A stretch of 62,904 bases of DNA from Bacillota bacterium (GTDB lineage: Bacteria > Bacillota > Dehalobacteriia > UBA4068 > UBA4997): NCBI GenBank assembly GCA_021769035.1, contig JAETTP010000006.1:1-62904 (forward strand), given 5' to 3'. A program made the translations under genes and the position numbers. Shown one piece after another: positions 51,335-62,904 of this stretch. The notes under the pieces are model-generated. The model was not told the DNA's origin. It saw only the letters and a list, made by a program, of their open reading frames with translations, and made no database searches. Position 1 is the stretch's first letter, and the number at the start of each line of letters is the position of its first letter.

Positions 51335-51353
51335 ATATAAAAAATTTAATAGC

Positions 51354-51480
51354 TGTCTTCGGGGCAGGGTGAAATTCCCTACCGGCGGTGAGCGTCAATT
51401 TGGCGCAAGCCCGCGAGCGTAAGCTGATTTGGTGAGATTCCAAAGCCGACGGTATAGTCCGGATGAGAGAAGATGCGATA
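51354..51480 (+). ncRNA. FMN riboswitch (RFN element)
   Basis: Conserved blocks appear in order: CTTCGGGGCAGGGTGAAATTC, CCTACCGGCGGTGA, AGCCCGCGAGCG, GGTGAGATTCC, AAAGCCGACGGTATAGTCCGG and ATGAGAGAAGATG. These match the RFN aptamer throughout. It senses flavin mononucleotide; the riboflavin transporter gene ribU follows. The hairpin with T-run at 51552-51589 provides the terminator of the expression platform, so FMN should switch transcription off. Confidence 0.96.
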
Positions 51481-51551
51481 AATGCTAATTAATGCTGGGC
51501 GGCTTTGGGCCGCGGTTTGGCGTTGATATTTGGCATTTTAAGCTTGTTTTG

Positions 51552-51589
51552 GCTTCCCCCCGAAATCTGTTTTGGGAGAGGCTTTTTTT
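51552..51589 (+). terminator. Riboswitch-controlled terminator
   Basis: GCTTCCCCC pairs with GGGAGAGGC (one mismatch, one wobble) and is followed by seven T. It lies between the RFN aptamer and the ribU RBS, where the switch's terminator is expected. Confidence 0.7.
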
Positions 51590-51635
51590 ATTGTTTAAGT
51601 TAAGGCAGCTATACTTACCAAAGGAGGATGTTTTT

Positions 51636-52220
51636 ATGAAAAACCAAACCGATGCTGTAATGCCTAAAAAGCTGCCTGCCAATACGCGCTTGTTGACCCG
51701 TATCGGCTTGCTGGCTGCGCTTTCCGTGGTGTTTTTGCTGGCCGTGCCGCGGGTGCCTCTGGTGCCGGCTGCGCCGTATTTGCAATATGATATGGCCGAC
51801 GTGCCTATTTTGCTGGCCAGTTTTCTGCTGGGCACCGGCCCCGGCCTGTGGGTGCTGGGCTTGGTTAGCTTAATCCAGGGCGTGGTGTTGGGTGAGAATG
51901 GCCTGATTGGCGCTTTTATGCACTTTTGCGCCACTGGCGGGCAGGTTTTGGTGGCGGTTTTTATCGCTAACCGCTTGCGCGGCACTAAGGGGTTGCTGCT
52001 GGGCCTTTTGGCCGGTTCGGTCACCAGAATGTTGATTATGATACCAATGAACCTGCTGATTACGGTTTATGTTTTCGGGCAGCCGGCGGAGGTTGTTCGG
52101 GCGGCGATGCTGCCAGGGATTATGCCTTTCAATTTTTTGGTGGCGGCCATTAATTCGGTAATATTCTTTGTGATTTACACTGTAAATGAAAAAGTTTTCC
52201 GTGATATGTTGAAAAATTAA
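51636..52220 (+). CDS. ribU: Riboflavin ECF transporter S component RibU
   Basis: 194 residues from ATG 51636 (AAAGGAGG upstream); the frame extends back into the riboswitch without meaning. Six hydrophobic helices and the S-component pattern LQYDMADVPILLASFLLGTGPG, MHFCATGGQV and a later PMNLLITVYVFG. It binds riboflavin in the membrane and works with shared ECF ATPase/EcfT subunits encoded elsewhere. Regulation by the FMN riboswitch fits exactly. Confidence 0.93.
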   Translation: MKNQTDAVMPKKLPANTRLLTRIGLLAALSVVFLLAVPRVPLVPAAPYLQYDMADVPILLASFLLGTGPGLWVLGLVSLIQGVVLGENGLIGAFMHFCATGGQVLVAVFIANRLRGTKGLLLGLLAGSVTRMLIMIPMNLLITVYVFGQPAEVVRAAMLPGIMPFNFLVAAINSVIFFVIYTVNEKVFRDMLKN

Positions 52221-59428: not shown

Positions 59429-59457
59429 TTGTCAGTAAAGTTTGTTACAATTATAAT
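59429..59457 (+). promoter_or_regulatory. Promoter of the triple-riboswitch leader
   Basis: TTGTCA (59429-59434), 17 nt, TATAAT (59452-59457). The transcript would start near 59464, giving a leader of about 550 nt before the short ORF at 60014. Confidence 0.7.
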
Positions 59458-59490: not shown

Positions 59491-59534
59491 ACAAATTTAT
59501 CTGATGATGTTGAACGGTTGTCAGATAAATTTGT
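59491..59534 (+). other. Hairpin at the 5' end of the riboswitch leader
   Basis: ACAAATTTATCTGA and TCAGATAAATTTGT are perfect 14-bp arms around a 16-nt loop, followed by a T-rich stretch (CTGTTTTTAGGTTTTTAG). It is the first structure in the transcript, before the aptamers. It could be an early terminator or a 5' stabilising stem. A six-codon frame (ATG at 59590, RBS-like AAAGGGGGG) lies between it and the first aptamer. Confidence 0.6.
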
Positions 59535-59695
59535 CGTATCTGTTTTTAGGTTTTTAGTTTGCTCTAATTGATAGATATTGAAAGGGGGGATGCCTATGCG
59601 TTTAGCTTAGGTTTCGGTTCCAGAGCCGGATTTACTGGGCAGATGATTGGCTGGAGCAATGGATATCGAACTTTTATTAAACTTCTCTTGAAGGA

Positions 59696-59785
59696 ACACT
59701 GGGCAAACCCAGCAAAAGCTGGGGACGCAAAGCTATAGGGGCTAAGTTCTACATCTTGTTGGGTGAGGATACGCCAGCCTGGCCG
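59696..59785 (+). ncRNA. c-di-GMP-I (GEMM) riboswitch aptamer 1
   Basis: GGGCAAAC, stem-loop CCCAGC-AAAA-GCTGGG, the GGGACGCAAAGCT block and the GGGGCTAAG...GCCAGCCTGGCCGC 3' part match the GEMM-I consensus. The G before CAAAC (59703), equivalent to the ligand-contacting G20 of the Vibrio Vc2 RNA, is present, as is the GCAAAGC adenosine. This predicts c-di-GMP rather than cGAMP recognition. First of three tandem copies. Confidence 0.93.
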
Positions 59786-59791
59786 CTGAAT

Positions 59792-59876
59792 TTTAGGCAA
59801 ACTCAGCCAAAGCTGAGGACGCAAAGCTATGGGGGCTTAAACCTGACCTGAGGTTGGGAGTGCCAGCCCGGCTGCT
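59792..59876 (+). ncRNA. c-di-GMP-I (GEMM) riboswitch aptamer 2
   Basis: AGGCAAAC, stem-loop CTCAGC-CAAA-GCTGAG, GGACGCAAAGCTATGGGGGC and TGCCAGCCCGGCTGC. It starts 94 nt after the equivalent base of aptamer 1. The CTCAGC/GCTGAG stem keeps pairing although its bases differ from copies 1 and 3, good evidence that the structure is maintained. The conserved G is at 59797. Confidence 0.93.
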
Positions 59877-59879
59877 AAT

Positions 59880-59964
59880 TTTTAGCAAACCCAGCGAAAG
59901 CTGGCGACGCAAAGCTAAGGGGGCTAAGTCTAGTGGGTAAGGCTAGATAAGCCAGCCCGGCCGC
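59880..59964 (+). ncRNA. c-di-GMP-I (GEMM) riboswitch aptamer 3
   Basis: TAGCAAAC, stem-loop CCCAGC-GAAA-GCTGGC (the only copy with a canonical GNRA tetraloop), GCGACGCAAAGCTAAGGGGGC and AGCCAGCCCGGCCGCC. It starts 88 nt after copy 2, with its conserved G at 59885. As the copy nearest the expression platform it probably sets the final decision. Confidence 0.93.
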
Positions 59965-59999
59965 CGGATACTTTGCATCCGTAGAGTTTTTTAGCAAAG
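59965..59999 (+). terminator. Two mutually exclusive hairpins after aptamer 3
   Basis: CGGAT/ATCCG (59965-59969 with 59977-59981) followed by TAGAGTTTTTT looks like a weak terminator. CTTTGC/GCAAAG (59971-59976 with 59994-59999) uses the loop of that hairpin and ends at the RBS AAAGGAAG, so the two cannot form together. This is a plausible expression platform, though the stems are short and the direction of control (on or off with c-di-GMP) cannot be deduced. Confidence 0.5.
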
Positions 60000-60013
60000 A
60001 AAGGAAGATGTTT

Positions 60014-60136
60014 ATGTTTAAAAATCAAAGAACTGTTGGTTCGACATTTGGCTCTGGCAAAATTCCTGGCAAGGGAGATGTTGCGATGTTGTTTGCGTGT
60101 AAGCGACGTGGAAACCAGAGGTGGTATTTGAAATGA
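60014..60136 (+). CDS. 40-residue basic ORF coupled to the surface protein
   Basis: Starts at ATG 60014 (ATG 60008 also in frame) 7 nt after AAAGGAAG and ends with TGA 60134-60136, which overlaps the next gene's ATG (60133-60135) as ATGA. The product is basic (many Lys and Arg), has no signal or transmembrane helix and no known family. As the surface-protein gene has no good RBS of its own other than inside this ORF, the ORF may exist mainly to pass ribosomes on by re-initiation. It could also be a functional small protein. Confidence 0.5.
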   Translation: MFKNQRTVGSTFGSGKIPGKGDVAMLFACKRRGNQRWYLK

Positions 60137-62904
60137 CAAAAAATAAAAAACAAAAAATTCAGAAAAAATTTAGCCGTCAGCATTTGGCGATGACGCTGGT
60201 TTTGGCTGTGGCTTTAACCCTGGGCGCGTGGCTTGCTGTGGTTTGGCCCTCTGCTTTTGCTGAGGCGGACAGCGAAGGACACGTGCATAGTGTGCTTTGC
60301 TACGACGGGGTGGCTTTGAATTGTGCTGAAACTGATGAGGCGCATGAGCACACTTTGAACTGCTTGACAGGAATTGAATTGACTTGCTCTGAGGATCATG
60401 TGCACAGCCTTGATTGCTATGCAGCTACATCTGCGGAGTTGGTTTGCGGCGTGGCGGAAGGCCAGGAGGCCGAGCATGTGCACAATATGCCCGGTTGGGA
60501 ATGTGTGCCGGTTAAGATTTTGACCTGCACTCAGCCGGAACATACGCACACCGCAGCTTGCCAGCCGGAAACCTTGAAGCCGACTGTGGATCCGAAACAG
60601 GATGACGGTGGTTATGTTATCTACGAAACTGGTGTTGAGGAAAGCAACGATCCGCTTGATCCTTATGACGGCCCAGACGTGAAAGATGACGAGTATGGCG
60701 GCTTTGGTGGTGACGACGATTTCGGTTTTGGCGGTGACGACGATAATTTTGGCGTTGACCCTGGCCTTGACGACGACTTTGGTGTCGACCCGGAAGATCC
60801 CGGAACTGAGGGCGGCGACACCGACCCGGCTGATACTGAGGGCGGCGACACCAACCCGGCTGACACTGAGGGCGGCGACACCAACCCGGCTGATACCGAG
60901 GGCGGCGACACCAACCCGGCTGATACCGAGGGCGGCGAAACCAACCCGGCTGATACTGAGGGCGGCGAAACCGACCCGGTTGACACTGAGGGCACTACTA
61001 ATTTGGCGGCCAAAAAGATTTACGGCCTGCCTGTGCCGTTGACAGAATTGCCGGAGAATCTGCCAGCTGCTGATACAGCGACAGATTACGCTTGCGGACA
61101 GACCGAACATGTGCATGGCGCAGAGTGCTACACGGTGGTTTGGTTGTGCCGGCAGACTGTGGTTATCAATGTGCCGGAACTGCCCACCAGCGGGACGCTC
61201 AACCTGCTGGACGGCGTGACTGTGGAGCCGGCCGAGATTGACGGCAAGCCTTTGCAGGTTATGGTGGCTGCCGTTGACGCTGAGGACGCCAAAGGGAATT
61301 ATCACGAGGCCCTTTGGGACGTTGAAGCAAACACTCTGACGATTGAAGCTGATATTACCTACGAGGTTACTTACGTGGCCTACTATCTCAGCGACGAGCC
61401 CACTGAGGATTCTGCAATGTTTGCAATGCCGGCGGCTGATGATAGCGAACAAACCGGCTTCCCGGTTATGGCTGGTTTGTTGAAAGTGCAGGCAAGAGGA
61501 AATGGCGGCCAAGTTGCTAAAATTGGCGAACAAACCTTTGATACCTTGCAGAAAGCCATTGACGCAGCAGAAGAAAACAATGCTGCAACAACAATAGTGT
61601 TATTAAAAGATACAAAAGAGAATATTACTATTGCTAAGGGTAATATTACACTGATTACCGAGGGAACTGACAGCTTTACGATTTCCGGTAACAAACCAGA
61701 TAATTTTACTCCTCCTACCACTGCGGCAGGTTATGAGAACAATTCTGTTATCACTATCACTGGCGGTACGTTTACCCTAAATGGTAATATTACCATTACT
61801 GGCGGAACCGGCAGCGTGATAGCGACAAATCAAAAACCAGGCGGTCAGTGGTATGAAACCTATACCGCCGGTGGCGGCGTTTTGGTTGCAGGCGGCACCT
61901 TTAATCTGCAAAAGGGTACGATTAGCGGTAATGAAGCCAACAAAGGCGGCGGTATCTATGTTATGTTTGGTCACGTAACAAATGGATATTGGTTAGATGG
62001 TAAAATATCTGCTGGCAATCCTGAACTGAAGATGACTGGCGGTACTGTTACAAATAACAGTACTCAAGGTGTAACACCAACATTTACTGACAAAGCAGAT
62101 GGTAATCCAAACGGTAATTTCCGGGCTGGTGAAGGCGGCGGCATTTTTATCGCTAGCAAAACTGGCAATGAAATTACCGGCGGTAGCATTACTGATAACA
62201 AATGTAACACTACGATGGACTGGGGCGGCGGCGGTGTTTACGTTAATAGCGGCGCGTCCTTGACTATCAAAAATGCTGTTATCACGGATAATACAGCCAA
62301 AGGTTTGGGCGGCGGTATTTCCGGCTGTCCGCATGCCGACATCTTCTTGTCGATTGATGATGGCGCTGTCCTCTATGAAAATAAAGCCCAAAAAGATATT
62401 TCTCCTAAAAGATACCCTAATGAGCCTTATAAATGGGATAGCAAGTATCTTAATAACGTGTATGTGAGTGGTAACGGCACTGGCGATTATTTAGCATACG
62501 ATAAGGATCCGGGCTTTACTGCTGACAAGGCAATGGATTTTTATTGCGTTGATGAGTGTGTTGTAGTTGGTCAGTCGGTAAGCGATGATAATGGTGTTGC
62601 CTATATAGGCAGACGTATAGAAATTCCCAGCTCGGTAGTGTCAAGCGGTTTTGGAACACAAAATGCTAATGAGCATAACAATGTCCAAATATCAGCAGGT
62701 GATGTTTCTGTAAAACAAGGCGAACCCATTGCTGTGAAACGTGGTTCTTTAGGACTGACAGCAGTTGGCAGACCAACCAGTGTTACAAACAGCGTTATGA
62801 TTTCCGGCAACAGCAGTACAACACACGGCGGCGGTATTGCCTGCAATGGCGATCTTATTTTAGGCACAAGAACAATAAAAAAAGAATCTGGCAATTCTTG
62901 GCCG
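60133..62904 (+). CDS. Large secreted surface protein/adhesin, incomplete at the window edge
   Basis: Open for 924 codons to the last base, no stop. A basic start of 16 residues and a hydrophobic core (about 20-42) with cleavage near AFA-EAD form a signal peptide. About 48-145 and again near 325 have repeated H-x-H-x3-C units (HVHSVLC, HEHTLNC, HVHSLDC, HTHTAAC, HVHGAEC), possibly metal-binding or disulphide-forming. About 180-225 is Gly/Asp-rich, 227-286 is an acidic tandem repeat, and from about 450 on come Gly-rich repeats such as GNEANKGGGIYV and DNTAKGLGGGI, typical of right-handed parallel beta-helix surface proteins. An LPXTG or other anchor would lie beyond the window. Controlled by the triple GEMM leader. 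Confidence 0.85.
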   Translation, partial: MTKNKKQKIQKKFSRQHLAMTLVLAVALTLGAWLAVVWPSAFAEADSEGHVHSVLCYDGVALNCAETDEAHEHTLNCLTGIELTCSEDHVHSLDCYAATSAELVCGVAEGQEAEHVHNMPGWECVPVKILTCTQPEHTHTAACQPETLKPTVDPKQDDGGYVIYETGVEESNDPLDPYDGPDVKDDEYGGFGGDDDFGFGGDDDNFGVDPGLDDDFGVDPEDPGTEGGDTDPADTEGGDTNPADTEGGDTNPADTEGGDTNPADTEGGETNPADTEGGETDPVDTEGTTNLAAKKIYGLPVPLTELPENLPAADTATDYACGQTEHVHGAECYTVVWLCRQTVVINVPELPTSGTLNLLDGVTVEPAEIDGKPLQVMVAAVDAEDAKGNYHEALWDVEANTLTIEADITYEVTYVAYYLSDEPTEDSAMFAMPAADDSEQTGFPVMAGLLKVQARGNGGQVAKIGEQTFDTLQKAIDAAEENNAATTIVLLKDTKENITIAKGNITLITEGTDSFTISGNKPDNFTPPTTAAGYENNSVITITGGTFTLNGNITITGGTGSVIATNQKPGGQWYETYTAGGGVLVAGGTFNLQKGTISGNEANKGGGIYVMFGHVTNGYWLDGKISAGNPELKMTGGTVTNNSTQGVTPTFTDKADGNPNGNFRAGEGGGIFIASKTGNEITGGSITDNKCNTTMDWGGGGVYVNSGASLTIKNAVITDNTAKGLGGGISGCPHADIFLSIDDGAVLYENKAQKDISPKRYPNEPYKWDSKYLNNVYVSGNGTGDYLAYDKDPGFTADKAMDFYCVDECVVVGQSVSDDNGVAYIGRRIEIPSSVVSSGFGTQNANEHNNVQISAGDVSVKQGEPIAVKRGSLGLTAVGRPTSVTNSVMISGNSSTTHGGGIACNGDLILGTRTIKKESGNSWP
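60811..60990 (+). repeat. Six 30-bp tandem repeats coding DTEGG(D/E)T(N/D)PA
   Basis: Units begin at 60811, 60841, 60871, 60901, 60931 and 60961, each starting GGCGGCGA and ending CTGAG/CCGAG. They differ at few positions and keep the reading frame, giving a 10-residue acidic, Pro-containing spacer (residues 227-286). Such a repeat can change copy number by slippage and would lengthen or shorten the stalk of the surface protein. Confidence 0.92.

Follow-up and report, generated by a model that had tools for sequence, protein, structure and literature searches.

Three abutting c-di-GMP-I aptamers followed by a single conserved platform at the ribosome site in a Bacillota bacterium

The closest described triple of c-di-GMP-I aptamers is Bc3-5 of B. 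thuringiensis, a triple-tandem riboswitch (PMC4759541). A survey from 2022 counted 347 c-di-GMP-I doublets and 12 triplets, and proposed a pseudo-cooperative logic for tandems (PMC9481103). Tandems of this class are mainly complete units, and enrichment of adjacent aptamers, defined as those with less than 20 nt between them and a single platform after the last one, was reported only in Pseudomonadota (PMC12452182). The Vc2 riboswitch is known to switch through P1 (PMC9262584).

This study concerns a 62,904-nt stretch of a Bacillota genome, hereafter the window (contig JAETTP010000006.1, assembly GCA_021769035.1), in which exactly three RF01051 matches were found, all on the + strand (cmscan, gathering score 35). 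Like Bc3-5, the window carries three RF01051 aptamers in one leader ahead of one downstream gene set; however, Bc3-5 is described as three complete elements with terminator platforms, ON with ligand, whereas here abutting aptamers share one Shine-Dalgarno platform. The array belongs to the same aptamer class as the tandems of the 2022 survey (PMC9481103). It resembles the tandem glycine riboswitch in its adjacent aptamers and single platform and differs from it in ligand and fold, and it shares with Vc2 a presumed control at the ribosome site, although its last aptamer, unlike Vc2, has no recognisable P1.

An earlier note on this DNA had described three complete GEMM-I aptamers in one leader, spaced by 94 and 88 nt and each containing the GACGCAAAGC block. 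The RF01051 search agrees on all of these points and on the coordinates: the matches score 49.8-60.0 bits against the threshold of 35, the core-to-core distances are 94 and 88 nt, and the block is present in every copy (core positions 59724-59733, 59818-59827 and 59906-59915). Scanned alone, aptamer 3 extends over 59874-59968 with 59.4 bits. An RF01051 search for a fourth, degenerate aptamer upstream in the leader returned none at E<=10. Adjacent Rfam models are separated by 0 nt, and C92 of one aptamer lies 8-9 nt from position 20 of the next, so that a platform of its own is possible for the last aptamer only; with the platform solely behind the last aptamer, the array is of the adjacent type defined above. 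The features of the locus are collected in Table 1.

Table 1. Features of the array, its leader and the downstream reading frames, in window coordinates.
Feature	Position	Strand	Basis
Candidate sigma-70-like promoter TTGTCA-17-TATAAT, likely leader start	59429..59457	+	consensus scan, 11/12 matches
Inverted repeat (18 bp, A+T-rich, loop of 8 nt) between promoter and array	59491..59534	+	
c-di-GMP-I aptamer 1	59692..59790	+	RF01051 60.0 bits, E 3e-9
c-di-GMP-I aptamer 2	59791..59879	+	RF01051 49.8 bits, lowest of three
c-di-GMP-I aptamer 3	59880..59968 (whole-window scan)	+	RF01051 53.5 bits
Platform hairpin S1	59965..59981	+	CGGAU 59965-59969, loop A+CUUUGC (59971-59976), AUCCG 59977-59981
'Anti-core' CUUUGCAUCC	59971..59980	+	complementarity to core GGACGCAAAG; CUUUGC part also to GCAAAG 59994-59999
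GCAAAG, core-motif copy directly 5' of Shine-Dalgarno	59994..59999	+	pairs with CUUUGC; invariant in 14/14
Shine-Dalgarno AAAGGAAG	60000..60007	+	sequence; conserved among platforms
40-codon ORF on the platform's ribosome site	60014..60136	+	sequence; no Pfam match
Large secreted repeat protein (signal peptide, acidic repeats)	60133..62904	+	ORF; runs off contig

The re-paired first stem of the earlier note holds for copies 1 and 2, where P2 changes from CCCAGC/GCUGGG to CUCAGC/GCUGAG by a compensatory C-G to U-A replacement, but not for copy 3 (CCCAGC/GCUGGC), in which the last pair is C.C. The P2 loop is GAAA in copy 3 alone; copies 1 and 2 have AAAA and CAAA in place of the expected GNRA tetraloop, and the lowest-scoring aptamer 2 also has a degenerate tetraloop receptor (CUUAA). 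Such losses would be expected if only the 3'-most aptamer worked and copies 1 and 2 were decaying duplicates. This appears unlikely, given that both copies retain the core, G20 and C92, that one base pair in P2 of copy 2 has changed in a compensatory way, and that arrays of several aptamers with G in the first are kept in ten genomes; in the sister array C91, the P2 loops of all three aptamers are GAAA.

The G before CAAAC that had been noted in each copy is not the ligand-specificity base. The latter, which we take to be position 20 in Vc2 numbering, lies one nucleotide further 5'. It is G in copy 1 (59702) and copy 2 (59796) and A in copy 3 (59884), this A aligning opposite consensus G11 in the Infernal alignment to RF01051. 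The claim of pure c-di-GMP control had passed over this change. C92 is present in all three copies (59964 in aptamer 3).

The same positional pattern was found in related arrays. The first aptamer has G20 in all 29 arrays, from ten genomes, while the last aptamer carries A in 11 arrays, C in 7 and G in the remaining 11, a discordance of 18 versus 0 (sign test p = 8e-6, indicative since the arrays are related, with letters partly read by eye). Counted by genome, nine out of ten have at least one non-G last aptamer (p = 0.004, likewise indicative for related arrays). A20 occurs in the last aptamers of the sister arrays C91 and C23. Single aptamers ahead of the common platform carry G20 (L096, L098), and a tight triple without this platform (L071) shows the opposite order, A, A, G. 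We know of no ligand change caused by C at position 20.

The survey gives A at position 20 as a signature of c-AMP-GMP aptamers, and in one case put to the test this base made c-AMP-GMP bind better (PMC9481103); the GEMM-Ib aptamers of Geobacter and Desulfobacca carry A at this position, as aptamer 3 alone does here. The array might be imagined to take two inputs, aptamers 1 and 2 responding to c-di-GMP and aptamer 3 to 3',3'-cGAMP, which would agree with A20 being found in 11 of the 29 last aptamers and never in a first one. It is nevertheless quite unlikely. Only one GGDEF protein was found in the source genome (a response regulator with HD and GGDEF domains), besides one partial EAL match, and its GHIFGD motif contains the Asp of the canonical enzyme and not the Ser of Hypr GGDEF (PMC6456294). 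A search of this 98% complete genome for cGAMP synthases of the Hypr GGDEF and SMODS kinds gave no Hypr GGDEF and no SMODS match. Unlike GEMM-Ib, sister arrays carry C at position 20 (7 of the 29 last aptamers), and in the P1-less Cd1, replacing base 20 by A or C made no large difference (PMC9262584). Because C20 is also present, no cGAMP synthase is recognisable and Cd1 tolerates the change, relaxed recognition in aptamers that lie directly behind another and have no P1 of their own is favoured. The probable ligand of all three aptamers is c-di-GMP. For aptamer 3, with its A at position 20, relaxed c-di-GMP sensing appears likelier than cGAMP sensing. In a bacterium of the same order, a triple GEMM-I array with 116-118 nt spacing and A20 in all copies was seen (L047, G016:C6), which is a candidate c-AMP-GMP-type array.

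The platform occurs once in the window, at 59965-60007, 3' of the last aptamer, and is ordered as CCGGAUACUUUGCAUCCG, spacer, GCAAAGAAAGGAAG and start codon. Alignment of 14 platforms gave GCCNGCCGGAU.CUUUGCRUCCG...GCAAAGAAAGGA near letter for letter, with CUUUGC, UCCG and GCAAAGAAA invariant and the spacer changing freely; hairpin S1 is kept in 14/14, and 98.6% of S1 cells pair. Almost no covariation was found among these 14 platforms, because the key helix CUUUGC/GCAAAG is invariant; this pair shows no compensatory change, so its backing is the invariance itself. By inspection, S1 and CUUUGC-GCAAAG have dimensions compatible with an H-type pseudoknot, with stems of 5 bp and 6 bp, one loop of 1 nt and a spacer loop of ~5-14 nt. 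Six more GGATACTTTGC matches in the source genome, considered as aptamer-free platforms, have no GCAAAG-Shine-Dalgarno part and are unrelated.

A U6 run stands 3' of S1 in the window, and terminator-like sites lie at 59852 and 59965. Together with the prevalence of complete tandem units among c-di-GMP switches (PMC12452182) and the example of Bc3-5 (PMC4759541), these could point to three independent complete switches, each ending in a terminator and acting one after the other, with a digital response through serial termination. This is very unlikely to be the case here: no inter-aptamer sequence is left for a platform, terminators do not follow each aptamer, the site at 59852 sits inside P3 of aptamer 2, and sister platforms without the U-run (e.g. 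C23) still keep CUUUGC, GCAAAG and the Shine-Dalgarno sequence. The platform is without a consistent terminator. The 'digital' response expected by the earlier note is not supported in that form either, having been measured on three complete switches with predicted terminators of their own, which this array does not have.

The source genome (G000, 2.23 Mb) contains ten RF01051 matches, all of them within arrays, namely the triples C99 (the window) and C91 and the doubles C23 and C55 (3, 3, 2 and 2 aptamers). The common platform ends all four, as well as one array in a congeneric genome (G006). Scanning 84,980 species genomes for three exact cores at the tight spacing of the window returned 21 stretches. 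Ten of them are genuine GEMM-I arrays, every one from a Bacillota-like genome, and about half are simple repeats and not GEMM-I. Eight of the ten real triples end in the common platform (the L060 array being seen whole as L106); of the other two, L079 has a variant platform and L071 neither. These counts support the rarity of triples, at this spacing and with exact cores, that had been proposed from the sequence; as a type, however, triples were already known (PMC4759541; the 12 triplets of PMC9481103). With a covariance model built from the platform (R1), matches were obtained in 3 of the 398 genomes in a phylum-wide sample, 24 times in seven of eight array-bearing gut genomes, with eight in one genome, and at all four arrays of the source genome. 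Where the platforms are readable, at least one GEMM-I aptamer lies upstream, as far as the contig allows, and a gene for a secreted-type protein downstream. Arrays of up to five aptamers with the platform occur in other Clostridia-like gut bacteria, the L066 array apparently having five. Neither tight triples nor the platform were found in viral contigs.

A search of the accessible literature for the platform sequence returned unrelated papers only. Neither the shared CUUUGC/GCAAAG platform nor the positional change of base 20 was found by text search in the accessible part of the 2022 survey (PMC9481103). Since published tandems are mainly complete units, and the adjacent type is enriched only in Pseudomonadota, the single-platform Bacillota array with a conserved platform at the ribosome site is a new variant in the searchable literature, most subscription papers excepted.

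The array comprises three aptamers with no space between them, no consistent terminator and a platform conserved across genomes. On balance, we lean towards regarding it as a close-packed c-di-GMP-I riboswitch, in which three aptamers act on one shared, most likely translational, platform by core-decoy switching. CUUUGC-R-UCC is the reverse complement of the core GGACGCAAAG, usually matching the last core at 8-10 of 10 positions (29 platforms); the match is 10/10 in several genomes and commonly 9/10 with one A.C. The complementarity of CUUUGC to both GCAAAG and the aptamer core suggests a core-decoy switch. In the ligand-free state an empty aptamer core (GACGCAAAG) would capture the platform CUUUGCAUCC. 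Ligand would lock the cores, and CUUUGC would then pair instead with GCAAAG beside the Shine-Dalgarno sequence, possibly forming with S1 an H-type pseudoknot directly next to the ribosome site. Since the single platform strand could be held by any core still free of ligand, switching would require all aptamers to be occupied, and the response would be steep. The invariance of CUUUGC and GCAAAG could be explained by both pairing partners being constant.

Adhesins are often turned on by c-di-GMP, which fits a switch that is OFF with ligand poorly. The direction is uncertain, OFF with ligand being slightly favoured, and the functional class I switches of C. difficile are OFF switches (PMC6200980). 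As the data do not fix the direction, the motile-to-attached switch of the earlier note cannot be called.

Folding predictions were made for the two alternative pairings. Forced folds of 26 loci showed core and GCAAAG pairing to be of similar energy, with a mean difference of 1.0 kcal/mol (sd 3.3). When aptamer 3 and the platform were folded alone without constraint, the platform strand was placed on core 3, and in the whole array 85% of this strand was predicted on the cores (core 1 0.58, core 3 0.24). In nested folding of 23 arrays, without pseudoknots, blocking the cores raised the mean GCAAAG pairing of 0.28 to 0.47, while in the window it stayed weak (0.03, nested model). Since the rise is what competition requires, alternation between core and GCAAAG pairing is plausible in these models, with the predicted accessibility of the Shine-Dalgarno sequence unchanged: its occlusion by ligand was not seen in nested folding (0.66 to 0.67 on core blocking). 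The fold z-scores are unremarkable (-0.75 and -1.08), shuffled platforms equalled the core complementarity of the window in 16 of 300 trials, and for about half of the arrays the models predicted little core pairing. In some last aptamers the core is altered (GACACAAAG, GACGGCAAAG), which weakens anti-core pairing. Core variants (GCAAAA) and a G-type platform were seen to be linked in a compensating manner, but this link, being dominated by one genome (G442), was not used. More tentatively, and with considerable doubt, the arrays may represent an RNA AND gate recurrent in gut Clostridia, in which the platform strand is complementary to every core of 2-5 aptamers, a copy of the core stands beside the ribosome site, decoy cores give steepness, and later aptamers have been freed at position 20.

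The stop codon of the 40-codon ORF overlaps the ATG of the surface-protein gene (ATGA), making translational coupling possible. In sister loci the surface gene itself starts at the platform site, so this ORF may be a coupled leader or reflect a frame change. The large repeat protein has a sub-threshold Pectinesterase match only (Pfam). Downstream of every array in the source genome is a gene for a secreted, repeat-rich protein. At C91, C23 and C55 this protein terminates in PKTGD and a hydrophobic segment, which by inspection is a sortase-type signal; MucBP and DUF11 domains are present in the one at C55. Upstream of the window array are a dCache-HAMP-MCP chemoreceptor and a hemerythrin-response-regulator protein, in keeping with the earlier note, which placed the triple before one surface-protein gene and next to a chemoreceptor.

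Several other elements were observed around the arrays. In the leader, the inverted repeat is followed by a short T-rich stretch. Between it and the array lies a short ORF that has a strong Shine-Dalgarno sequence (window 59580-59610), and one is also present 5' of the arrays in L102, L105, L106, L114 and L121-L124; in other genomes it often has PP near the start and overlaps a CCGCC...GGCGG hairpin. The palindrome TTTACAAAAANGTATACNTTTTTGTAAA, possibly the operator of a shared regulator, is clustered upstream of three of the four arrays (C91 70522-70661, C55 8232-8259, C23 9096-9237) and also occurs at C37 14638-14778, C89 and C117 of the same genome (15 half-site matches, against none in the reversed control). 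A gene for a small AP2-like protein (sub-threshold PF00847), a candidate partner or regulator, is located directly 5' of several arrays in unrelated genomes (L043 2750-3208, L044 7720-8223; also L096, L116, L119 and L120). Elsewhere in the window, an FMN riboswitch (51351-51478, 119 bits) precedes a membrane protein ORF (51492-52220) that looks like a riboflavin transporter.

Described c-di-GMP tandems are mostly separate switches in series. A conserved single-platform array, if true, would offer a testable route to steep RNA switching via core decoys, and its position-20 pattern, with G first and A or C last, is directly readable by ligand-binding assays. In this uncultured bacterium, a small c-di-GMP network, with one GGDEF enzyme found, is tied to four surface-protein genes.
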